From positions 3,871,501 through 3,935,500 of the forward strand of contig NZ_CP039253.1 of the NCBI RefSeq assembly GCF_004795915.1: a DNA stretch of 64,000 nucleotides, given 5' to 3'. The number at the start of each line of letters is the position of its first letter. The stretch's first letter is position 1. The notes beneath the pieces were generated by a model. That model made no database searches. It saw only the letters and a program-made list of their open reading frames with translations, and was not told the DNA's origin. This document shows, piece by piece, positions 12,873 through 33,844 of the stretch. The position numbers were made by a program, and so were the translations under genes. The stretch comes from Rhodococcus sp. PAMC28707. GTDB lineage: Bacteria; Actinomycetota; Actinomycetes; Mycobacteriales; Mycobacteriaceae.

Positions 12873-13394
12873 TTGGGTGGATTAGCCGGTCAACAGGCAA
12901 TCGCCGACCGTTCCGATCGATGCCGCGATGCCCTCCTGCGCCAAACGCTGCCCGAACGCAATCGCCGTGTACTGACCAGGTTCAACCGGTCGACGCAACA
13001 CCTCGAGCTGCTGCGCTCGTACGCGCAAAGGGAGGGGCACACCAGTGTTCCCGTCGACTTAATTGTGGACGGTTTGAAGCTAGGGCAATGGGCCAGACTC
13101 CGTCGCCGCGAACACACGAGGCTCAGCGCCGAAAGACAAGCGCAGCTGGTGGTCATCCCCGGATGGTTCTGGGGCACCAAAGCCGACCAAGTCTGGAGCC
13201 AGAAGTTCGAATTACTCGCACGGTACGACGACCGCGAAGGTCACATAAAACCCCCAGACGGTCACATCGAGCAGGGAGTCAAACTCGGCGGCTGGGTTCG
13301 AGAACAGTGGCGAGGGAAAGAAAAGATGCCCGTCGAGCGATCAGCGAAACTGGAGTCGTTGCCCGGCTGGAACTGGGGACGCGAATCGACCTAG
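12873..13394 (+). pseudogene. Helicase-associated (HA) repeat protein fragment
   Basis: The frame holds two tandem HA repeats, each about 60-65 residues with a W and ending PGW(F/N)W. One spans HLELLRSYAQREGH to VIPGWFW; the other spans FELLARYDDREGHI to LPGWNW. HA repeats normally sit at the C-terminus of plasmid or phage DEAD-box helicases. No helicase motor and no clear start codon or ribosome site precede them, and a transposase remnant lies immediately upstream, so the 5' part was probably lost. A short free-standing HA protein cannot be excluded. Confidence 0.55.
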
Positions 13395-18224: not shown

Positions 18225-20810
18225 TTAGTGCGGGAAAAGATGGTCTAGATCGGCCTTCGTGTGCAGCTTCCCGTGCGTCGGGCTCAGAAGCTCACCGAGC
18301 CAACGTCCGTCTGGTAGCCGAGCCTCCACCCGCGTACGGGCTTCTCCACGAGACGCTGCGCTGTTGTCTCCACAGAGCGCGTCGTACTGCTGTATTCGTT
18401 CGGCAAGAAGGTCGTACAGGTGCAGCGCTGCCTTGTGGTTGATCAGCGCGACGCTGTCCCGTGCAGCTTCTTGCGCGTCCTTCTTCACCTCCGTAGCGGG
18501 AGTCAACAGACAGCCGTAGACACGGGTTTTGGGTGCGCGAGTCTTCTCGACCTGTATCTGCCCAAGCAGCTGATTGACGTCCCCACGAATCAAGGGGGGT
18601 GGGTCACCGGCCAGCACTGTTTTGACCTCCCAGGCGCGGCGTTCAGACCGCTTGGTGGTCGACCAAGTCCATCGACAGTCTGTGGCGCTCTGTTCCTTAT
18701 CTGGTGGTCGTTCACTGCTGGCACCGGCGAGACGGGCGAGCACAAGCAGCCCCCCACACTGCTCGTCATGTGTTCCTGCCAACAGCACACGTCCGGCAGA
18801 TAGCTCCTTCCCCAGCCGGGGGCCGGCCTCCCTGCGCCACTCATCCCACAGGAGGAACAATCGGTCCGTGTCATCGGCGGGATCCGTGTAACCATCGAGG
18901 TCCGAAATCGTGCGACGAAGCCTTTGGAACCATGTGGTCCGCGGTCCATTGCGGGTGACATCCTGCAGCGCGTCGCGGGCCGCTGCGAAGTCTTTGGGTG
19001 TCCCGCCAGTGAAGTGGGCGTGGGCTTCGACGTACCGCCAGAACGCGGCATGCTCGGTTTCGCCTGCGGCCGCGAGCTTGTCCGATGCTTCCCGTGCGTG
19101 TTGTGCCGCCGCTGTGTGGTTGCTGATCCACATGTCGGCGACAGCGGTCACTTCGAGATCAGCACTCGAAACCGTGCTGCTGCCGCCAGTCTTCTTTCCG
19201 GGTCGTCGCCGACGAGGTGGCGCAGTCGCTGGCCCTGATGGTGACGGGGTCGTTGAACCTGCGGCCCAGAACGTGTCGCAGGTAGCCCGCGTACCAGCCC
19301 AGTCAGTGTCGTAGATCGCCAGTGCGCCCTTGACGGTATCTTGAGTGCCCGCGGGGATAGATTGTCGAACAACCGGATCGGCCAGCACTCGAGCAAACAG
19401 TGGGTCCAGGCCTAAGTACATCGAGCGGTCCGAAGGCTCGCGGTTCGCGCGACCGAGGGCCTGTGTCACACGCTGGCCGACGCGGTGGCGCATGAAGCTG
19501 GCGTCGCCCAGATATGCGACTACGAATCGCTCGAATTCGCTGCTGGCTTGGGGTACGGATGTGATGATGACGAGCTTGCAAAGTTCGCCCGCGAGATCGA
19601 GACCGTCGTAGCGGCCGGCGGCGATGAGATGGCCCAAAGGGGCATGAGTCCAAATGTCGAACATCGAGTCGTCACCGGGCTTGAGCCTGAATACGCTGAG
19701 CCCTTCCGCCGTCAACTTGGTTTGCAGGGCGTCGGCTTCGGCGTGGCTCGAGCACAGCCACGCTGTTCTGCCGCCAGCATGCGTCGACTGTTCGAGCGCC
19801 CAGGCAAGTGTGTTCGGACCGAAAGCTTCTTCTGGGCCGGGGTTGAGTACGAACAGACGCTCACCAGTGGATCCCGCATGCAATGGGGAGGCGGTCGACA
19901 GGGCCACAATTCGATGGGCACCCACTCGTCGCTGCAGGTCGTCCATGGTGCCAAGGGTTGCAGACATATAAATCCGCTGCTTGGCGCTTACATACCATCT
20001 ATTGAGGGTTGTCGGTGGATGATAGGGGCGAATCTCGATCCCGGACGGCCCGATCAGTACCCCGCAATGTCCGAGGTGGTCCCGGATGGTGGGCCATACA
20101 TATTTGGTCTCGTTGGCCTTGACATAAGGCGATGCTTCGATGGCGTTGCGGATACGTTCCTCAAGGACTTTCCAGTCCTTGAAGGACAGTAGTTCCGGAG
20201 GAGTGCCGGGTCGCGCTGTTCCGTCCTGCATAGCGTGGAGGCCCGGGTAGGACGACGTATGGGCGATCAAGAAGCCGCAGATCGTCCGATAGAGCGTCCT
20301 GGCCTCGCCACTCTCGTCTGGGATGCGAAACGTCTGCATGGAGCTCAACGGTTGTTCGGCGAGGTGAGCGTCGTCAAATATGACAAGGTCGGCGGGCTTG
20401 GGCACCGGGCTGGAGTTGAAATAGACCCAGTAGTTCATCACGCCGACGACCTGGCCCTGGTGGTAGTCGTCGAGCGCGGTCGCGCCGTAGGACTTGCTCG
20501 CGAAAAGAGCCACCTCCAACCCAAGCTCCTCCGCCTCCGCTTTGACCCGTTCCGCGAGTTGACGCGTTCCGGCCAGATAGGCGGCAGTCCGGCCTTGATC
20601 AAGCGCGTAGTCGGCGATCAGCAGAGCAACTAGTGTCTTGCCCTCGCCGGTGGCCATTTCAATTGCCAGATCCGACGTGGCCAGGTGTTCTGCGGCGTAT
20701 GCGCTGAGAACTTGACTCTGGCCGGGGCGTAGCTCGGTGAAACGCGCAGATCCCTACGCAGCAAGGCGGTCTGCGAAGTCCGGCACAGTGCTATCGATCG
20801 TCAACGTCAC
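18225..20810 (-). pseudogene. SF2 (XPD/DinG-like) helicase-nuclease with in-frame amber stop
   Basis: From Walker A (ATGEGKT) the frame is open for about 810 codons. It has a DDAH box, SAT (YMSATLG), motif VI QALGRANR, a basic linker, a helical middle region, and a C-terminal PD-(D/E)xK-like element with WEVKT. Family-like sequence continues upstream of Walker A (RFTELRPGQSQVLSAYAAEH, then PDFADRLAA) back to a GTG at 20810. It is interrupted by TAG at 20754-20756. No ATG, GTG or TTG lies between that stop and the Met that forms part of Walker A, so a restart would lose the Q motif and cut the P-loop context. It is therefore probably inactive, unless the stop is suppressed or is a sequencing error. 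Confidence 0.75.
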
Positions 20811-20839
20811 GCACTTTCGTCGAGGCCAACAGCTTTCGA

Positions 20840-21120
20840 TTGTACTTACGAATGGCCGGGATGTTTAAAGGTTCCGGGATCACTAGGTTCGACCTGCAAT
20901 CGTCGACGCCTCCGCGAAGCCGGCAGGCCGATGCTGGAACGGATAGGTCTACCACGAGCCATTCCGACGACGCCGCAGTTGTGTTGGATCCCGGTAAGCC
21001 TGCCATCACTGTAAACGATTTCTGTCCGACAGTTCCCGTCAATTCGTCGGTTACAGCGATCGTGTACGTGCCGAAAGCAGTGACGCCTTCGGAGTTGTCG
21101 CCGCCCGTGAAGGAGGGGAC
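20840..21120 (-). pseudogene. Fragment of a secreted Ig-like protein
   Basis: The minus frame reads like a beta-sandwich repeat: GVTAFGTYTIAVTDELTG, then VGQKSFTVMAG. Such segments occur in surface proteins. No start or signal is present, and the frame runs into IS3 sequence, so this is at most a gene fragment. Confidence 0.3.
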
Positions 21121-21122
21121 CA

Positions 21123-21290
21123 GTGAAAGCTCTGTCCTACACCGAGTCGCACGAGAGCTGTCCGCCCTGCGCGCACGTGCGGGGGGTGCAGGTCGCCGCC
21201 TTTGACGTCGGCGGTCGGCCCTCGGTGATCCGATTCCTGCGGACGTGCGAATCGTTCGATAGGCGTGTGCCGCAGGGGCGACTGCTCGCC
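21123..21290 (+). pseudogene. Tyrosine recombinase fragment
   Basis: About 55 codons (KALSYTESHESCPPCAHVRG, then FDVGGRPSVIRFLR) match, at both DNA and protein level, the middle of the intact recombinase at 27907-29082 (its region KALPYTESHQTCPPCAYVRW). Neither end of the gene is present. Confidence 0.8.
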
Positions 21291-21380
21291 AAGGTCGACC
21301 TGGAGAAGGACGCGCTGCGGGGAGGTCGCAAGGAGAACCTCTGAGCCCGGCCGCCAAGCGCCGCGCCGTCGGCATGTGCA
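21285..21380 (+). pseudogene. IS3 orfA/orfB junction fragment (plus strand)
   Basis: The sequence encodes the end of an IS3 OrfA (RLLAKVDLEKDALR) and then the start of OrfB in another frame (LSPAAKRRAV). This is the frameshift junction of an IS3 element, in the orientation opposite to the IS3 copy that follows. Confidence 0.7.
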
Positions 21381-21439
21381 TGACTGGCAGGTCCCCGATA
21401 GTCGGACCACCGCGTTCTAGAGCCACGGTGTGATTGATG

Positions 21440-22305
21440 ACAGTCGATCTCGCAGCCCACGGGTTGGTGCGTGTGGGCGCATTGGGCAGCGTACTCGGCG
21501 GGTGTCGGGTACCCAGGGACGAGTGCCGGTGCCGATTATTGTGGTCGTCTTTGAAGTCTTCGATCACGACCCTCGCTTCGAGCAGGCTGGTCCAGTGATT
21601 GCGGTTGAGGCATTCCTTTCGTAGTCGGTTGTTGAAGGATTCGATGTGGCCGTTGTTCCATGGTGTCCCCGGCGGGATGTAGGCGATACCGATCCTGTCC
21701 CGGAAGAACTGTTGCAGCACAGAGGAAATAAACTCCGGTCCGTTGTCCATTCGCAGCACTTGAGGCGGCCCTCCCCGCAGCGCGAACGCCTTACCCAACT
21801 CCTCGGTCAGCCGCTGCGCGGTGATCGAGCGCTCCACGATGTTGAGCACCGACAGTCTGGTGTGTTCGTCGATCATCGACGCAATCTTGATGGCCTTTCC
21901 ATCGACGGTCGAGTCGAACTGGAAATCCATAGCCCACACCACTTTCGGTGCATCGGATTCGATCTGCGGGCACGAACTGACGCCGGCGCGTTTGCGGGGA
22001 TGGTAGATCCGAACCTGCAGACCCTCTTCCTTCCACAGTTGGTGGACCTTCTTCTTGTTCACCGTCATGCCCTTGTCGTGCCTCAGATGCGCCCAGTCGC
22101 GTCGAAACCCGTGCACTGGATGCGTGCCTGCATATTTGCGGAGTTCGGCTCTGAGTGTGATGTCAGGGTCGGCGGGTGTCTGCGCGATCGGAGTCCGGGC
22201 GTAGGTGGATCGGGCGAGCCCAACTGCTTTGCACGCCAATCGTTTCGACATGTTCATCGTGGTCACGAGCATGTCGACAGCGCGACGCTTGGCAGCTGGG
22301 CTCAA
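21440..22305 (-). pseudogene. IS3 transposase OrfB (DDE), frameshifted near its end
   Basis: The protein has the usual helical start (SPAAKRRAVDMLVTTMNMSKRLACKAVG), HTH_21, and the rve core: WAMDFQFD (first D), RMDNGPEFIS (second D), then GHIESFNNRLRKECL (catalytic E). Near 21510 one base is missing relative to the family ending, so the frame leaves the IS3 C-terminus and runs on through unrelated DNA to 20791. Most of the catalytic domain is intact, so mobility depends on whether the altered tail matters. Confidence 0.75.
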
Positions 22306-22665: not shown

Positions 22666-22937
22666 CGTCCTAATGGGACTCGATCGGCGAGTCTTCGTCA
22701 CCGCGCAGTCCTGTCGGAGAATGCTGATCACTGAGCCGCTGGTGGGTGAGCACTTCATCGTCCGGGAGTGAACGTCGACTCCTGAGGATAGATCGTGCAC
22801 CCACCAGTCGGTGAGGGTTCCACAGAACGCTGATGGGGTGTCGTGCCGCACTGAGCACTGATCCATTAGGTCGCAGTCCGGATCCCTCGAAGGCTCACCG
22901 AGCAATGACCGAACGCGTGCGAGGAGAGGAATGCAAC

Positions 22938-24158
22938 ATGATTTTCGTAGGAGACGACTGGGCCGAAGAGCACCACGATATCCACGTAATGAACACCGAC
23001 GGTAAGCGCCTGGCCACGCGCCGACTACCTGAAGGGTTGGCAGGTATCGCGGCATTCCACGACGTCGTGGCCGCGCACGCCCCCACGCCAGCCGATGTCG
23101 TCATCGGGATAGAAACCGACCGAGGGTTGTGGGTAGCTGCGCTGCTCGCAGGCGGATACACGATCTACGCCATCAACCCGCTCGCCGCCGCACGCTATCG
23201 TGACCGGCACCATGTATCCGGAGCGAAATCCGATGCCGGAGACGCGAAACTGCTAGCAGACCTAGTTCGCACCGACCGCCACAATCATCGCACCGTCGCC
23301 GGCGATACCGCGGATGCCGAGGCGGTCAAAGTGCTGGCCCGTGGTCACCAAAATCTGATCTGGTCCCGCAATCGCCAGACCAACGCATTGCGCTCGGCGT
23401 TGCTCGAGTATTACCCGAGTGCTCTGGATGTATTCGAATGCCTCCATGACCGCGACGCAGTCGCAGTGCTCGCGCGCGCCGCTTCACCCGCCGAAGCCGA
23501 ACATCTCAGCACCTCGTCTATACGCTCGATACTGAAAAAAGCTGGGCGACAGCGCAATGTAGATTCAAGAGCCCAGCAAATTCGCGTATCGCTACGTAAA
23601 GACCAACTGGCTGCGCCACCGCCCGTCGCAGCAGCGTTCGCCGCAACTACCCGATCGGCGGTCGCGTTGATAGCGGAATTGAACCGACAAATAACTGACC
23701 TCGAAGCAGTTCTCTCAACACATTTTAGAACACACCCGGACGCCGACATCTACCTCTCCCTGCCAGGACTCGGTGTCATCCTCGGCGCCCGGGTGCTCGG
23801 TGAATTCGGAGACGATCCCAACCGATACACCACGGCCAAGTCTCGCAAAAACTACGCCGGCACGTCACCCCTGACCGTCGCATCCGGCAAGAAACGCGCC
23901 GTTCTCGCTCGTCACGTTCGGAATCGACGCCTCTACGACGCGATTGACCAATGGGCATTCTGTGCACTCAGCCAGAGCCCAGGCGCTCGCGCTTACTACG
24001 ATAGATATCGTGCTGCGGGCAACCTCCACCACCAAGCGCTACGGGCACTCGGCAACAGGCTCGTCGGCATCCTCCACGGTTGCCTACGACATCACAGCAA
24101 CTATGACGAGCACACCGCCTGGGGACACCGAGACGCCCAACAACTCAGTGTCGCTTGA
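22938..24158 (+). CDS. IS110-family transposase (DEDD)
   Basis: The 406-residue protein has the RuvC-like DEDD domain (FVGDDWAEEHHD; VIGIETDRG; GAKSDAGDAKLLADL) and the C-terminal Transposase_20 domain (LSLPGLGVILGARVLGEFGDDPNRY, then KNYAGTSPLT, then the Ser-type segment near the end). It has the usual length and no breaks. GAGGAGAGGA lies 8 bases before the ATG. IS110 elements lack inverted ends, so the borders are not placed; flanking non-coding DNA at about 22.7-22.94 kb probably belongs to it. TTGACA overlaps the stop codon and could act as an outward -35. Confidence 0.9.
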   Translation: MIFVGDDWAEEHHDIHVMNTDGKRLATRRLPEGLAGIAAFHDVVAAHAPTPADVVIGIETDRGLWVAALLAGGYTIYAINPLAAARYRDRHHVSGAKSDAGDAKLLADLVRTDRHNHRTVAGDTADAEAVKVLARGHQNLIWSRNRQTNALRSALLEYYPSALDVFECLHDRDAVAVLARAASPAEAEHLSTSSIRSILKKAGRQRNVDSRAQQIRVSLRKDQLAAPPPVAAAFAATTRSAVALIAELNRQITDLEAVLSTHFRTHPDADIYLSLPGLGVILGARVLGEFGDDPNRYTTAKSRKNYAGTSPLTVASGKKRAVLARHVRNRRLYDAIDQWAFCALSQSPGARAYYDRYRAAGNLHHQALRALGNRLVGILHGCLRHHSNYDEHTAWGHRDAQQLSVA

Positions 24159-24445: not shown

Positions 24446-24955
24446 ATGAATCCATCCCGCTTCATCACCGGCTCTGCCGCAGCGATTTTGGCTGTCGTTG
24501 CACTCACCGCCGGATGCTCCTCCGGCGATACGGTCGACGCCCCGACGACGCCTTCTACCACCTCGGTTACTGCCACCACCACAATCGTGCGCCCCACAAC
24601 GGCTACCGTGCCTTCGAGCCCTTCGGCAATGCCGTTGCCATCAACAGTCACTTCGGAATCCGTCTACGTCGAGCCCGTCCCGGCACCCGCTCCAGCACCC
24701 GCCCGAGCACCGGTCCCAGCGCCTGCGCCTGCGCCTGCGCCTGCGCCTGCGCCTGCGCCAGCGCCAGCGCCAGCGCCAGCGCCAGCGCCAGCGCCAGCGC
24801 CAGCGCCAGCGCCAGCGCCAGCGCCAGCGCCGAGAGTCTCGTACGCGAACTGTACGGCCGTTAAGGCCGCCGGAGCGGCACCCATCTACAAGGGCGAACC
24901 GGGATACAGCACCAATCTCGACCGCGATCGCGATGGTATTGCCTGCGACACATAA
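24446..24955 (+). CDS. Lipoprotein with Pro-Ala repeat stalk and Excalibur domain
   Basis: The 169-residue protein has a lipobox (LTAGC, Cys24), a Thr/Ser/Pro linker, then about 27 Pro-Ala dipeptides (about 73-128), which should form a stiff extended rod. The C-terminal Excalibur calcium motif reads DRDRDGIACDT. It is therefore tethered to the outer face of the membrane with the Excalibur head reaching into the wall. The head matches that of the nuclease at 13777-14937 (YxNCxAVxAAGAAPI). Confidence 0.85.
   Translation: MNPSRFITGSAAAILAVVALTAGCSSGDTVDAPTTPSTTSVTATTTIVRPTTATVPSSPSAMPLPSTVTSESVYVEPVPAPAPAPARAPVPAPAPAPAPAPAPAPAPAPAPAPAPAPAPAPAPAPAPAPRVSYANCTAVKAAGAAPIYKGEPGYSTNLDRDRDGIACDT
24719..24832 (+). 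repeat. Six-base tandem repeat coding for Pro-Ala
   Basis: About 6 units of GCGCCT are followed by about 13 units of GCGCCA, all in frame. Such tracts change length by slippage without shifting the frame, so the stalk length should vary between strains. Confidence 0.9.
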
Positions 24956-27069: not shown

Positions 27070-27174
27070 GTCGAACTCGGGTGGATTCACCGGCACACTG
27101 GTGGTCTCTCGATTCGCCGAACAACCTGGTCAGCTGGCGTGTGGTGGACTCTGGTGGGTCCACTGGAATTGTTA

Positions 27175-27220
27175 CCTCTTTTAACAGCGGGTCCGGGGTT
27201 CGAATCCCTGATGGCGCACA
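27175..27220 (+). other. tRNA-Lys(CTT) 3' end: candidate attachment site
   Basis: The segment from CAGCGGGTCC through GGTTCGAATCC to GATGGCGCACA is the anticodon-stem 3' arm, variable loop, T arm and acceptor 3' strand of an actinobacterial tRNA-Lys(CTT). A CTCTT (anticodon-loop like) lies just before it, with one extra base. The 5' half (D arm, acceptor 5' strand) is absent. Tyrosine recombinases commonly use exactly this part of a tRNA gene as attB, and a recombinase gene starts 690 bases downstream. Confidence 0.75.
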
Positions 27221-27222
27221 AG

Positions 27223-27270
27223 AATGACCCCCTTACCAGCGGAAACGCAGGTTTGGGGGTCATCTTTTTG
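27223..27270 (+). terminator. Terminator hairpin directly after the tRNA-like segment
   Basis: ATGACCCCC pairs with GGGGGTCAT (perfect 9 bases), followed by CTTTTT. This is the usual position of a tRNA terminator and may have come along with the tRNA 3' end. Confidence 0.75.
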
Positions 27271-27525: not shown

Positions 27526-27906
27526 TACGCGATGCCAGGCGGTGGCCGCTATTTTCAGTCGAGCACGGGGTCGAATTCGGTGGATGGTTCGGCGGCTCGA
27601 GTCCGCTTCGAAAGTGTTCGCGGCGCCGGCGGGGATTTCGCGAGGTTCGGATCTGGGCTCGATCGGATGCGAAAATAAAGTAGCTATTTAGTCCCGCGGG
27701 GGCGGAGCGTATTCGGCTTGCATTGATCCAGGAAGTTCGGCGGCTGGCCGGCGGATCAAAGAGGTGCTGGGCGCGCGGGAACCCGATATTCGCTTGATTG
27801 GAAGTTGGGCTCGTAAATTGAATTTTCCGCACCATCTACGATGAAACGCCTGTTCAGCACAGTTTCACGCTGCCGATGTGTCAGTGGCCTGCGCTAGGCT
27901 GCGTGT
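27526..27906. other. Leader region of the recombinase gene
   Basis: No supported gene. TAGGCT (27895-27900) lies 6 bases before the ATG at 27907, so transcription may start at the start codon. The -35 region is weak. Confidence 0.4.
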
Positions 27907-29082
27907 ATGGACTTTCGACCAGCCCGGACACCTGCGGTGGGCACTGCCCCGGGCATCCTCGGAAACGGTCTGTCGGCGGCGGTCGAGCCGGAGATCCCGC
28001 CGGCCGTCGCGAAGCGGATCGCGAGCGCCGTGCAGTCTTCCCGTTCCGAAGGAACGCGCAAGACCTACTCCACCGCATGGAGACGCTTCTCCACCTGGTG
28101 CGAGACGAACGGTCACGTGACGTTGCCGGCACATCCGGTCACCGTCGCCGCGTACCTCGTCGACGCCGCTGACACTTGCACCGAGCAAGGGGAGCGGGCT
28201 TACGCCGTGGCCACCTTCGGCACCTGGATTGCGGCGATTAATTATCAGCACCGGATCACCGGGCATCTGTCACCGTCTGCACACGAACTCGTGACCGCCA
28301 CGTTGTCCGGGATCCGGCGGGAGTATGCCGCCGCGGGGGACCGTCCCCGCAACCCGCGAGACCCGTTGCTGGTGGATGACATCAAACTTCTCGTACGGAC
28401 TGCGCGCGAGCAGTGCCGAGGGTGGGCTGACGAGGTGCTGGAGCGACGCGATTCGGCGATTCTGTTGCTCGGGTTTGCCGGTGCCTTCCGCCGCAGTGAA
28501 CTCTCCGACCTAGTCTGCGGGGACGTCAGCGTGCACCGGCATGACGGGTTGCATATCCGGCTACGGAAGTCGAAGACTGATCAGGAGGGTAGGGGAGCGG
28601 TGAAAGCACTGCCGTACACCGAATCCCACCAGACCTGCCCACCCTGCGCGTATGTCCGCTGGGCCCAGGTCATCGCAGCATTCGACGCTCGCGGCCGCCC
28701 CTCTGTTATCCGGCTGCTGAGCAAGGGTGAACCGTTCGAGGCACATGTGTGCCGCGGGGGAGTCCCGCGCACCGCCGCCCTAGCACCGATGTTTCGCGCT
28801 ATCGCGAAGAACGGAAACCTTGGAGTCACTCCGTTGTCCGGAGCTGCGATTCACCAGACCATCCGCCGCCGTGCTGGCCACGCAGGCTTCGATCCCACCG
28901 CGCTGACCAAACTGGGTGGGCATTCCCTGCGTGCTGGTTTCGTCACCCAAGGAACTCGCAACGGTGCCGACGGGTCCGCTATCGCCCGGCAGACGGGCCA
29001 CGCGAGCCTCGACTCGGTCGAGGTGTACCGCCGCGAGCATGCGCCCCTCGTTGGAAATGCGGTCACCGACATTGGTCTCTGA
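27907..29082 (+). CDS. Tyrosine recombinase/integrase
   Basis: The 391-residue protein has an N-terminal SAM-like DNA-binding domain (about 35-150: GTRKTYSTAWRRFSTWC) and a catalytic domain. It carries the Arg in AFRRSELSDL, the HxxR box in GGHSLRAGF, the His in QTGHASLDSV and the nucleophile Tyr in VEVYRREH. All catalytic residues are present. An unusual CPPC pair (TCPPCAYVRW) in the catalytic domain is shared by the fragment at 21123-21290. It should cut and rejoin the nearby attachment region. No excisionase gene is seen beside it. The next gene begins 142 bases later in the same direction. Confidence 0.9.
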   Translation: MDFRPARTPAVGTAPGILGNGLSAAVEPEIPPAVAKRIASAVQSSRSEGTRKTYSTAWRRFSTWCETNGHVTLPAHPVTVAAYLVDAADTCTEQGERAYAVATFGTWIAAINYQHRITGHLSPSAHELVTATLSGIRREYAAAGDRPRNPRDPLLVDDIKLLVRTAREQCRGWADEVLERRDSAILLLGFAGAFRRSELSDLVCGDVSVHRHDGLHIRLRKSKTDQEGRGAVKALPYTESHQTCPPCAYVRWAQVIAAFDARGRPSVIRLLSKGEPFEAHVCRGGVPRTAALAPMFRAIAKNGNLGVTPLSGAAIHQTIRRRAGHAGFDPTALTKLGGHSLRAGFVTQGTRNGADGSAIARQTGHASLDSVEVYRREHAPLVGNAVTDIGL

Positions 29083-29223: not shown

Positions 29224-30942
29224 GTGCAGGTCGACTGGGCCACGCTTGGCCGCAACAAGTTCGAGTCCACAGTCGAACTGTTGATTCGCCGCCAGTGGGA
29301 CGGACACGCCAACGTAATCGTTCCTGATGGGCGCGGTGGCGACGACGGCATCGACATCGACGTCGAGAAATCGAACGCCCACAAGCGTATTTATCAACTC
29401 AAGTACTACCCGGATGGGTTCTCTGGCGACCGCAAGACCACCCGCCAGAAACAGATCCGCAAGTCGTACATCACAGCGGCCAAGTACCAACCAGACGAGT
29501 GGCTACTCGTCGTGCCAACCAAACTGACTCCTGGTGAGCGTATGTTCGTTGAAGGCCTGGCTGAACTACGAGGACCGAAAATCTCAATCGTAGATCAGGT
29601 CGAGCTCGACATCTTGATGATCAACCTCCCCGACGTTTACAACTACCTCGAACGCGATCAAATGCGTGCGAATGCAGTCTTGTTCGGCCAAGAAGCCGCA
29701 AATCTGTTTGGCGGCGTGAAAGATGTCGTGGATCGGGTGCGGTCATTGGGTCAGCTCGCGGACACGATAGACCCGCACTGGGCTCTTGATTTCGTGAGGT
29801 CCGGCGACAGCGTGACGTATTCACTGCGCCCGAAGACCTCTGATGCTCACATCAAAAGCCCGGTCAAACTTACAGTCGACGGGGTATTAGGTCCCCAACA
29901 TTCCGAGCTCGCGAAGGCCATGAGAGGGACATTTGGTTTCGGTGCCTCCGACCCAGTTCTGTTGCCTGCCGAAGTCGTCCAACGTCTTACAATCAGCGGA
30001 CCGGCGTTCATTGCCGGAGCGCATCAAAACATCGACATGCAGTTCAACCCCATCAGCCGCAACCCTCATGTGGGCGCGACCGCGCAAATCTCATTCGAAA
30101 CACCCGACGGCGATCACCTCGGACAGTTTGAAGGCGAGGTCACGCACATCGGCCAAGGACCCGAAGGTGGTGCGCTAGAGCTCGCCTTCTACAACAAACA
30201 CCTGGAGATGCGTGTTCTCTTTCCGCTGCAAGAATTTTCAGAAGAACCCATCGACGTGCGGATCGGTTACAACCTGCAGAAGATTGCAGTGCGTGACGCG
30301 ATCGAGGTTCTTGAGATCAGCACGCTTCTACGCTCCCACGCCCTTCTGCTGAAGGTGCACCTCGAAGATCAGCACCTGATGACAGTCCATCAAGGGAACG
30401 CTGAGAACATACCTCCACTGGATCCCGACGTTGCGATCATCAGATCAATCGCGGAAGACCTAAGTGTTGTCCAGGCTCACTGCAAACAGTCGTTCCAACT
30501 GCCGCTCACCGTGACCCAGAGGGAGAGGATCGATCTGCGCATCGCTCGACTGCTGATCGAAGGTCACGCAGTAGAAACGCCAGATGCCTCATCGATCACT
30601 GCCACTCTTTCGGGAGAGGACTCACCTGAACTTCGAGCAATCATGATCGACGGCGGTAGCCTACGTTTCGAGGGCCCCGACTACGTCGTTAAGATTGGAA
30701 AGAAGACGATGACAGTCGGGCCGGCGTACATTGGCGACCCAGAGTCGTATGTCGAACACGCGGATGTTGCGCTACACCGCCTCGATAACGGGACCGCAGA
30801 GGGTTACCAAGTCAAGTTTCTACCTGGTACAACAACTTACTTTCGGTCGGTACTTGTTGAATCCGCAGAACCTCGCCACTTCGCTGACCCACCAACACCT
30901 TGGCGAATTTCCGGGATCGAACAACCTACGAAACAGTCGTGA
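29224..30942 (+). CDS. Mrr-like QxK nuclease with large beta-rich C-terminal region (defence candidate)
   Basis: The 572-residue protein starts with a PD-(D/E)xK nuclease of the QxK type: E14/E18 on the first helix, PDGRGGDDGID with D44, then QLKYY with Q58 and K60. This is the signature of Mrr-like restriction domains. Residues 200-572 are mostly beta and contain no motif I recognise; they may recognise a phage component or the partner protein. GTG 29224 is chosen because GCAGGAGAGG precedes it; the upstream open frame reads as non-coding. It lies 142 bases before the STAND gene in the same direction, probably as one operon. Together they look like a two-gene immune system. Confidence 0.75.
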   Translation: MQVDWATLGRNKFESTVELLIRRQWDGHANVIVPDGRGGDDGIDIDVEKSNAHKRIYQLKYYPDGFSGDRKTTRQKQIRKSYITAAKYQPDEWLLVVPTKLTPGERMFVEGLAELRGPKISIVDQVELDILMINLPDVYNYLERDQMRANAVLFGQEAANLFGGVKDVVDRVRSLGQLADTIDPHWALDFVRSGDSVTYSLRPKTSDAHIKSPVKLTVDGVLGPQHSELAKAMRGTFGFGASDPVLLPAEVVQRLTISGPAFIAGAHQNIDMQFNPISRNPHVGATAQISFETPDGDHLGQFEGEVTHIGQGPEGGALELAFYNKHLEMRVLFPLQEFSEEPIDVRIGYNLQKIAVRDAIEVLEISTLLRSHALLLKVHLEDQHLMTVHQGNAENIPPLDPDVAIIRSIAEDLSVVQAHCKQSFQLPLTVTQRERIDLRIARLLIEGHAVETPDASSITATLSGEDSPELRAIMIDGGSLRFEGPDYVVKIGKKTMTVGPAYIGDPESYVEHADVALHRLDNGTAEGYQVKFLPGTTTYFRSVLVESAEPRHFADPPTPWRISGIEQPTKQS

Positions 30943-31084
30943 CTCATTGTCTCGACTGGGGTCCTCCACGAGCCAGTAGGCAACATGAACGCGCCTACTC
31001 GCTTCAGAACATCGCTGTGCAGACATCCTGAGAGTCCGCGAGACGAAGTCTCAACTCCTGATTTACATAAGAGATCGGTGAACA

Positions 31085-33844
31085 ATGACTCCTGGCGGCG
31101 GCACGATCGCAGCATTTGGCCTCAAGTACCAGTACATGGCTACCGTGGAGCACTTTCTGCAACACCTGCGGGACAACATAGCGCTAATTCCACAAACCAC
31201 GTTGGTTGTCGAACCTGTTGTGGTGGACTCTCATGGGCAAGACGACGACATCGTCGACTTCGGCTTCCTCACAGACGGCATGCCGACACATCACATCCAG
31301 GTGAAGTCTTCGATCGACCCGTCCAACCATCCGCTTCAACCAGGGTCCGCCCGAGCGGTACTCGAACGTCTCATCACTCACGATGCGACCACCTCTGCCC
31401 TTTACACCAACAAACCGCTCTCGCCCACCCTTCTTAGTGACGTTGAAGTCGACGCACGGGCCATAGCCCGGTTTGGCACCGTCTCGTACGTTTGGCCGAA
31501 CGGCCCAGGTGGACAACACAGTACACAGCGGGATCGGCCTCGAATCACGGTTGACGGGCGGTCTCATCACCTAGTTCGAGATTCAATCGCGGATCTAGTT
31601 GGCGGATTTCGCAAGGAACGCGGGCGGAACCACACCGCAACAACTTGCAGTCTCTTGGTTCCGATTCTTCTTGACCGGGTATTCAGTGCTGCGGCGGGAA
31701 CCGACGCGAGCCGTCTGGAGGCATTGGACTTTTTGGAGCTCGTTGCGATGCCCGACTCTCGCATCGCGCAGGTTGCGGGAGGGTTCGACTGGGGCCTCCC
31801 CGTCGCAGGCATACCGAACTACGTCTCGACATTTCCACGGTTGGACTACCTCAGCAAAATCAAGGACTCGTTCCCTGCCGAGGCAGCCGTTGCCCCACCT
31901 AGAGTCGCTCTGGTAGGTCATACGGGCTCAGGAAAGTCTGTAATCGCCTCGGACTACTGCCATCTCGATGCAATCAACTACCAATTCATGTGTTGGATCG
32001 ATTGCCGAGACGCAGACTTTATCGACGCGCAGGTTGTCAACCATGTCGAACAGCTGACAAAAGGCGCCCTCAGCCCCGAACAAGACGCCGTTGCCGTTTT
32101 GACCGGGATTCTCGGTCGCCACAGCGGCCCATGGCTCTTGATACTCGACGGCGTTGTGCAACGATCCGACATAGATCGAGTCATTCCGACACGAGGCCAC
32201 GGGGTAGTGCTCGTCACGAGCACCAACCGCCTGAACTGGTGGCCAGACACTGCAGTCATTGAAGTTGGCGAGTTCACCACCGAGGAGGCGGTCGGCTGCT
32301 TTGCCTCGTACGCCGGTCTAGACCGCGAGCAGGAAGAAGAACACCACACAGTACTGACGGAAATCGTTTACATGCTCGGGCATGTGCCACTGGCTGTGAG
32401 CATGGCAGGCGTATACTTTCGCAACGCGGACGGGACTCCAAGCGAGCTAGCCACCCATTACTTCGAAGACCTAGAGGCGCTCGACGACATCCTTTCGATC
32501 CCAGCGGGGTTCAACAAAACTGCGTTCAAGGCAATCCAGCATGCAGTCGCGTCCCTCGGGAAGCACGACGCAAGCGGGCACGGCCTTACGGCCCGGGCAG
32601 TACTGGAGTTGGGTTCGTTAATAGCCCCCGAACAAATTCCGCTCAATCTCATGGTGCCACTCGCAGCTGAACCTGAACACTCGCTAGACGTCGCTGAGGT
32701 TCCACACCCCGAGGTGGTCGAGCCCAAGCTGCGGCGGGGTGTCATTGCCGCCCTCAAAAGTCAATCGATTGCTCGCCGTATCGTCTCTGAAACTGCCGGC
32801 CCGACCAGCGAAACCATCAACCTCCATCCGCTTGTCCATCAGATCCTGCGGATGTCCCGGCTGGCCGCATTGCCACCGGGCCAGCTCGAGAGCGACGCAT
32901 TCCTACTGATGCACTTTCTACGCGGCTGGCTCGGCGCATCGAGATCGAACGGCGACTATTTCGCGACCGAACTGCTTCGAATGCACTCAGAAACTCTATT
33001 AGCTGTAGTCAAACAGCACGAACCGCTCGCGTCCTACTCCGATCAGAGTCGCCGCTGCTACCTGTACACAAAGGCGCTGCTCGAAGGAGAGTTGAGCACC
33101 TGTCACGCCAGCCGTCGACGATTCGACCTCTCACTGAGGTTAGGGCAAGCTGCTGGTTCGACGATGACGGCCCTGTCCGAAGAACCCACTGCCCGCGCAC
33201 TGACAGCCATAGTCGCGGTCAATATGATCACCGATCTTTCTTTCGCCAAAGCGCCCGCAGCAGTCCTTGCAGCAATCACCGCTGCTACATTGCCTGCGAT
33301 CACCGTAGGCGTTGCGGATGAGAAAGAGTCCATCCGAGAAGCTTCATATACCGCCGCCGGAGAACTAAGAACGATGCTGAACCGCACGCCCGAGTATCAG
33401 GTGGCCCCGGAACTCGAAGACGTTCGATCTCGCATCGATGCCCTGGTCGAAAGCGATCCACACCCGGATGCGCGTCCATCAACGGTCAATAACAGAATCA
33501 ACGAGCTCTACTCAGCAGGGGACTACGAAGCGCTCGAACGTTTGCTCCCCCCACTACGGCAGAACGCATCGCCAGATGATTCGGTGGGGCTGGATGCACT
33601 GCATATCGTCGTACGGTTGCATCTCGGAACTCTTGACGAAGTGCAGAGTGGTCTCGAAGAGCTCGTCGCCATCGACCCGCACGCTGGCTATCTCAGCAAC
33701 TCTCTCGTCGAGGCTCTGACAAAAGTAGGGCGCGAGGTAGAGCAATGTGCACAGAACAATCCTGCCGACAGACGACGACTGCTCCTGATGCGGGCCGCCA
33801 TCGAAACGAGATTGGTGCAGCTCATCGGCTCCGCCCAGCCCTGA
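31085..33844 (+). CDS. STAND NTPase with N-terminal nuclease domain (Avs/NLR-like)
   Basis: The 919-residue protein has three parts. Residues 8-120 form a DUF4297/Cap4-like endonuclease (GLKYQYMATVEHF, then DDIVDF with D58, then IQVK with Q72/K74). Residues 270-500 form a P-loop NTPase of the STAND class: Walker A GHTGSGKS (278-285), Walker B LLILD (351-355), a VLVTSTNR sensor, and the downstream NLHPLVHQILR winged-helix His motif. The remainder is helical and TPR-like. Proteins built this way act as bacterial NLR sensors: the C-terminus binds a phage protein, the NTPase oligomerises and the nuclease is switched on (established for Avs). It is unusual here in standing next to a second, separate nuclease gene. 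Confidence 0.85.
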   Translation: MTPGGGTIAAFGLKYQYMATVEHFLQHLRDNIALIPQTTLVVEPVVVDSHGQDDDIVDFGFLTDGMPTHHIQVKSSIDPSNHPLQPGSARAVLERLITHDATTSALYTNKPLSPTLLSDVEVDARAIARFGTVSYVWPNGPGGQHSTQRDRPRITVDGRSHHLVRDSIADLVGGFRKERGRNHTATTCSLLVPILLDRVFSAAAGTDASRLEALDFLELVAMPDSRIAQVAGGFDWGLPVAGIPNYVSTFPRLDYLSKIKDSFPAEAAVAPPRVALVGHTGSGKSVIASDYCHLDAINYQFMCWIDCRDADFIDAQVVNHVEQLTKGALSPEQDAVAVLTGILGRHSGPWLLILDGVVQRSDIDRVIPTRGHGVVLVTSTNRLNWWPDTAVIEVGEFTTEEAVGCFASYAGLDREQEEEHHTVLTEIVYMLGHVPLAVSMAGVYFRNADGTPSELATHYFEDLEALDDILSIPAGFNKTAFKAIQHAVASLGKHDASGHGLTARAVLELGSLIAPEQIPLNLMVPLAAEPEHSLDVAEVPHPEVVEPKLRRGVIAALKSQSIARRIVSETAGPTSETINLHPLVHQILRMSRLAALPPGQLESDAFLLMHFLRGWLGASRSNGDYFATELLRMHSETLLAVVKQHEPLASYSDQSRRCYLYTKALLEGELSTCHASRRRFDLSLRLGQAAGSTMTALSEEPTARALTAIVAVNMITDLSFAKAPAAVLAAITAATLPAITVGVADEKESIREASYTAAGELRTMLNRTPEYQVAPELEDVRSRIDALVESDPHPDARPSTVNNRINELYSAGDYEALERLLPPLRQNASPDDSVGLDALHIVVRLHLGTLDEVQSGLEELVAIDPHAGYLSNSLVEALTKVGREVEQCAQNNPADRRRLLLMRAAIETRLVQLIGSAQP

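Follow-up and report, generated by a model that had tools for sequence, protein, structure and literature searches.

The stretch of DNA analysed here (the window, 64,000 nucleotides) belongs to the 4.73 Mb single-contig genome of Rhodococcus sp. PAMC28707 and carries two large genes in a row, gene 1 and gene 2, each beginning with a nuclease-like domain. They lie on the same strand, separated by 142 bp, and a tyrosine recombinase gene ends 141 bp before gene 1. The original prediction for this locus, made from the letters alone, had described the two genes with their motifs, residue numbers and coordinates, as well as the recombinase next door, all of which were confirmed in the sequence. The features, with window positions, are the following:

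27907–29082, + strand: tyrosine recombinase, 391 amino acids (aa), Phage_integrase E 9.9e-10; frequently present in multiple copies in the genus, 3' cargo variable
29224–30942, + strand: gene 1, 572 aa; stand-alone Mrr/Avs4-like nuclease with a beta-rich C-terminal domain
29224–29658, + strand: gene 1 nuclease domain of the PD-(D/E)xK type, residues 1–145, with D44 (29353–29355), Q58 (29395–29397) and K60 (29401–29403)
29719–30939, + strand: gene 1 beta-rich domain, putative sensor, residues 166–572; no matched fold
31085–33844, + strand: gene 2, 919 aa; Cap4-like nuclease, NB-ARC STAND nucleoside triphosphatase (NTPase), C-terminus resembling tetratricopeptide repeats (TPR)
31085–31580, + strand: gene 2 N-terminal Cap4/DUF4297-like nuclease domain with D58, Q72 and K74 (hhalign and invariance in 7/7 sequences)
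31901–32446, + strand: gene 2 NB-ARC match (Pfam PF00931), residues 273–454, with the P-loop GHTGSGKS (31916–31939) and the Walker-B-like D355 (32147–32149)

Gene 1 starts with a GTG at 29224, closely preceded by GGAGAGG, and its open frame extends upstream to 29107. The motifs GDDGID and QLKYY are both present, and the D44/Q58/K60 residues that they contain are invariant in an alignment of 43 sequences, which includes the window's own protein and members as low as 21 % identity; G38, G39, D40 and G42 are likewise invariant. A looser GD-G-D...[Q/E]-x-K pattern is retained in 15 of the 16 class-level hits of the gene 1 C-terminal profile. Judged from these alignments, the conservation of the motif is far beyond chance. 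Pfam retrieved Mrr_cat only, below threshold (E 0.021, 15.4 bits against a cut-off of 21), and a Mrr_cat search across the whole own genome gave matches at two other places and none at gene 1. Despite this sub-cut-off score, the D...[Q/E]xK active site in a restriction endonuclease fold, found by alignment, predicted structure and structure match, places the gene 1 N-terminus among the Mrr-type PD-(D/E)xK nucleases.

The C-terminal domain of gene 1 (~400 residues) is beta-rich and confidently modelled, with more than 90 % conservation of D412, R435, R439 and R442. It had no fold match among the solved protein structures compared, and the searches made with the C-terminal half gave no known restriction enzyme, which agrees with the unassigned beta-rich half originally proposed; a match to a known stand-alone restriction enzyme had been named there as a ground for rejection. 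Pfam found no NTPase domain in gene 1, and none occurs among the families matched by its relatives. Therefore, lacking an NTPase by Pfam and having a beta-rich C-terminal domain, gene 1 falls outside the Avs (AVAST) STAND proteins, in which the effector is followed by a STAND NTPase and a TPR sensor.

The gene 2 motifs DDIVDF/IQVK, GHTGSGKS (K284) and LLILD (D355) were all found, and D58, Q72, K74, K284 and D355 are invariant in the seven aligned sequences, the window's own included. Its NB-ARC match exceeds the Pfam cut-off (E 1e-5, 25.4 bits against 23.5) and, with K284 and D355 kept in 7/7, identifies gene 2 as an NB-ARC (STAND) protein, the nearest solved sequences to the NTPase being AfsR and plant and animal NLR-type ATPases. 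For the helical part predicted after the NTPase, relatives support TPR-like repeats (TPR_12 in two of the seven sequences, and kinesin-light-chain TPR matches); NCBIfam FxSxx_TPR scored far under its cut-off (120 against 300 bits). The N-terminus aligned with actinobacterial Cap4_nuclease members by hhalign (probability 95.8 %, E 7.4e-9, 62 columns), with no plain hmmscan call: PF14130 at E ≤ 0.01 was retrieved in none of the seven gene 2 members, and G000 was also without a hit. PADLOC gave no hit for gene 2 at E ≤ 1, and thus none to Avs models, a branch that its library may lack. Among plasmid records, 13 match gene 2, one of which (Mycolicibacterium arabiense) spans the nuclease domain through the ATPase. 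Gene 2 is a further nuclease, NB-ARC and TPR protein of a known kind. Profile-profile comparison of the gene 1 and gene 2 nuclease domains, with small alignments, found no relation (probability 1.1 %), so that the two domains appear to belong to different families, as had been claimed.

Distribution and neighbourhoods of the two genes

The two genes had also been taken to form one immune system, for which conserved co-occurrence was the proposed check. In a family sample of 251 genomes (gene 1 matches at E ≤ 1e-5), gene 1 was found in 20 genomes and gene 2 in 11, and both in only two, one of them weakly (G000 and G221; chance expectation 0.88, P(≥2) = 0.21). The hits of G221 lie on separate contigs, that of gene 2 being a 105-residue piece. 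In a class sample (296 genomes, E ≤ 1e-10), gene 1 was present in 11 genomes and gene 2 in 50, with six in common including G000. Among the matches listed, the gene 2 nuclease domain was reached, besides G000, only in G347 and G355, which are outside these six genomes; the remaining listed matches start at residue 197 or later and therefore concern the ATPase. The 68 gene 1 loci (62 from the genome scan and six plasmid loci, flanks of at most 8 kb) held one weak gene 2 match, restricted to the ATPase (L107; 25.7 %, E 1e-4, residues 255–463). Gene 2 was absent from 18 gene 1 neighbourhoods of the family sample, 11 of which are also among the 68 loci, gene 1 was absent from all six loci around gene 2 relatives, and the neighbourhoods examined contained no second instance of the pair. 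Therefore, given the rare co-occurrence and the lack of a second pair at the loci of either gene, gene 1 and gene 2 are not a conserved unit, and the reading as a single system did not hold.

Gene 1 relatives are present in 21 named actinobacterial genera (one scan) and in 18 plasmid records, with two relatives in one genome of the same genus (G089). The closest relative found has 67 % identity (L033); 22 bases after it, on the same strand, begins the frame of a 562-aa protein that has no Pfam hit (L033:9736–11424). In Streptomyces althioticus, a transposase-like gene interrupts a gene 1 copy between its two domains (L107:5751–9163).

The genes surrounding gene 1 are variable. Gene 1 itself aside, the largest shared neighbour clusters comprise 7/68, 6/68 and then 4/68 loci. 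Read from sequence, the members listed are resolvase and short-chain dehydrogenase proteins, with relaxase and transposase proteins in clusters of four. An annotated MobF relaxase gene lies beside the relative in L055, and the same protein cluster adjoins that in L091, in total four of the 68 loci. No conserved partner-like neighbour was seen across the 68 loci. The gene 1 neighbourhood matches many defence models. Of the 156 proteins encoded within two genes of gene 1, 100 were scanned with PADLOC and gave matches to 201 models, the 25 listed being HamB, GajA, DpdE, DrmD, AbiE, CBASS cyclase and 2TM effector models. Of the 127 proteins at a distance of five or six genes, 100 were scanned likewise and gave matches to 13 models, ATPase- and regulator-like ones as well as a type II restriction enzyme and two PDC candidates with strong matches. 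This comparison is not a formal test, as hits to many models can come from a single protein, which may be so for several of the 25.

Recombinase copies and their cargo

At least one relative of the tyrosine recombinase (E ≤ 1e-60) is present in 32 of the 37 genomes of the genus. The conserved unit has an 18-base left end, about 94 bp before the recombinase ATG in the window and found in 29 of 32 recombinase-bearing loci; the three without the motif are the divergent copies L246–L248, and L186 and L187, which were scanned as well, hold no such recombinase. The genes 3' of the recombinase vary among copies (L188–L198, L229–L248), and in 11 of 31 copies the first three include a protein matching PADLOC, or near-identical to one that does. 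The left end and these cargo genes are:

Window 27813–27830, + strand: left end of the conserved recombinase unit, GTAAATTGmATTTTCCGC
L188: capP-like protein
L189: Lamassu LmuA and LmuB
L190 and its twin L231; L195, L239 and L240: CBASS cyclases of two kinds
L232: methyltransferase
L244: kinase
L229: PD-T4-5-like protein
L233: SIR2-like PDC-S25, on the opposite strand

For L195, L239 and L240, the assignment to the cyclase and 2TM counts of three members each was made by sequence, and the methyltransferase and kinase hits are weak as evidence of defence. Scanned singly, the cargo proteins of L197, L238 and L243 had no PADLOC match; the other copies were scanned in aggregate. In this aggregate scan, 116 models were matched by the 62 proteins of the first two genes 3' of the recombinase, against 30 by the upstream genes (56 proteins, a set shorter in total because many flanks end at 1 kb), where the matches were to regulator models and IetS. 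Directly 3' of the recombinase in L197 lies a 905-aa protein (L197:6129–8846) whose start reads from its sequence as restriction-endonuclease-like and for which PADLOC gave no match at E ≤ 1e-4.

Seven genomes hold the recombinase at one chromosomal site next to a short-chain dehydrogenase gene, in five arrangements as defined by the first cargo genes, with G181/G526 being twins over 18.8 kb and G544/G545 over 4.2 kb. Between the arrangements, homology is lost no more than about 17 bases from the stop codon of the recombinase. G201 is recombinase-free at the same site; its match to three of the five arrangements extends to about the left end, whereas that to the remaining two goes no further than about 168. 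G249, G525 and G546, also recombinase-free, stop at about 150–164 and are less informative. One arrangement, that of G527, has no recognised defence gene. The cargo thus looks as if it were exchanged directly behind the recombinase; neither a right end of the unit nor an exchange mechanism was found.

In addition, copies of the 3' end of a tRNA-Lys(CTT) gene occur downstream of that gene at four places over about 116 kb, one of them in the window, which suggests a tandem array of integrated islands:

Window 27160–27225, + strand: att-like repeat of the tRNA-Lys 3' end, with further copies in this chromosomal region
L185:5678–5758; L186:5304–5362 and 13135–13198; L187:1726–1784: further places of the tRNA-Lys 3' end

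Interpretation and relation to known systems

Taken together, these results make it fairly probable that gene 1 and gene 2 are two independent, self-contained one-protein immune genes, a sensor-nuclease and an NLR/Avs-type protein, standing side by side as co-cargo behind the tyrosine recombinase; that both are cargo of a defence-carrying element is the best explanation of their placement. We infer nuclease activity, sensing, an antiphage function and any trigger along the following lines. The ~400-residue C-terminal domain of gene 1 would sense an invader-derived ligand, protein or unusual DNA, and so switch on the N-terminal Mrr/Avs4-type nuclease, which would cut double-stranded DNA via D44/Q58/K60. 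Gene 2 would be an NLR/Avs-type receptor whose TPR part recognises a trigger, upon which the NB-ARC module would oligomerise with ATP and the Cap4-like nuclease would be activated. A broader proposal, which we hold only tentatively, is that gene 1 is the founding member of a widespread immune nuclease family, each member a single protein with a new-fold sensor, and that in this genus such genes are swapped as cassettes at fixed sites directly behind a dedicated tyrosine recombinase.

Other explanations are less probable. Gene 1 might be a modification-dependent type IV restriction enzyme (Mrr/MspJI-like), its C-terminal domain binding modified phage DNA and its N-terminal nuclease cutting it. 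We regard this as unlikely: the matches of the C-terminal domain included no DNA-reader fold, though a reader could still exist, and the domain order of MspJI differs, its matched nuclease part being C-terminal (residues 284–436). A plasmid or other mobile-element function, in competition with incoming plasmids or in stabilisation rather than in phage defence, would fit the MobF relaxase, its cluster and the plasmid records described above; however, the relaxase cluster is confined to its four loci and the near neighbours match several phage-defence systems, so that this function seems improbable. Least probable of all is a system of two cooperating genes restricted to this lineage. The shared strand, the short gap and the common position behind one recombinase would suit it, as would the G+C of both genes (0.557 and 0.582), below the window mean of 0.612 and the 0.656 of the recombinase, but it is opposed by the lack of a second pair and of a conserved partner-like neighbour of gene 1.

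Compared with known systems, gene 1 is close to the nuclease effector domain of Avs4 (AVAST type 4 STAND protein; PDB 8dgf) but has no NTPase domain by Pfam and a beta-rich region in its C-terminal ~400 residues, and its 572 aa contrast with Avs4 chains of 1,534–1,541 residues. It is also close to the Lamassu nuclease LmuA, from which it differs by having no conserved partner gene among the loci examined. The PADLOC candidate PDC-M58A is matched by 38 of the 43 gene 1 members, but this model (154 positions) covers only the nuclease part, residues 70–147; no paper was found under the name PDC-M58. The gene 1 family was undescribed in the titles and abstracts found (on PDC-M58, a recombinase-defence link in Rhodococcus, defence cassettes or hotspots, and NB-ARC or Mrr stand-alone defence nucleases), a scope outside which most subscription papers fell.

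Gene 2 resembles Cap4/DUF4297-type nucleases and NB-ARC/NLR-like proteins in its N-terminal alignment and its NB-ARC domain, and departs from them in the Pfam Cap4, PADLOC and FxSxx_TPR results given above. Its QxK spacing is the same as that of a DUF4297 nuclease used as a Q53A/K55A mutant in the available text of PMC11291478. By analogy, gene 2 may work like Avs1–4, whose nuclease activity, according to the excerpted text of PMC12931631, causes cell death through cleavage of both phage and host DNA once phage packaging proteins or another phage protein are recognised. In the accessible portion of PMC10250203, the Pseudomonas aeruginosa core defence hotspots cDHS1/2 are reported to exchange defence cargo with no obvious single mobilising mechanism. 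As far as that portion goes, these hotspots and the recombinase sites are alike in combining a fixed flank with exchanged defence cargo; here, unlike in cDHS1/2, one tyrosine recombinase family, found again at several places, belongs to the fixed flank.

The gene 1 family is worth attention by itself, as a one-protein nuclease undescribed in the sources searched, with a C-terminal domain that remained unmatched and a putative sensor for which no structural precedent was found. If it is a true one-protein sensor-nuclease, gene 1 would be a simple, genetically tractable immune receptor across the 21 genera, and finding its trigger would test whether an effector of the kind found in Avs4 is also controlled by proteins without a STAND NTPase. 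The recombinase sites, in turn, offer a direct route to more defence genes in the genus, by reading 3' of each copy.

Other features of the window

On the minus strand, a helicase-like 810-aa frame (18225–20657), which by its sequence could represent a further defence gene or else a remnant, lies to the left of a transposase-like frame (20791–22305) and an IS110 transposase gene (22833–24158). Further on, 6-base repeats (GCGCCT/GCGCCA) at 24661–24840 encode an extended Pro-Ala tract within a frame of 169 aa (24446–24955), whose product looks secreted.
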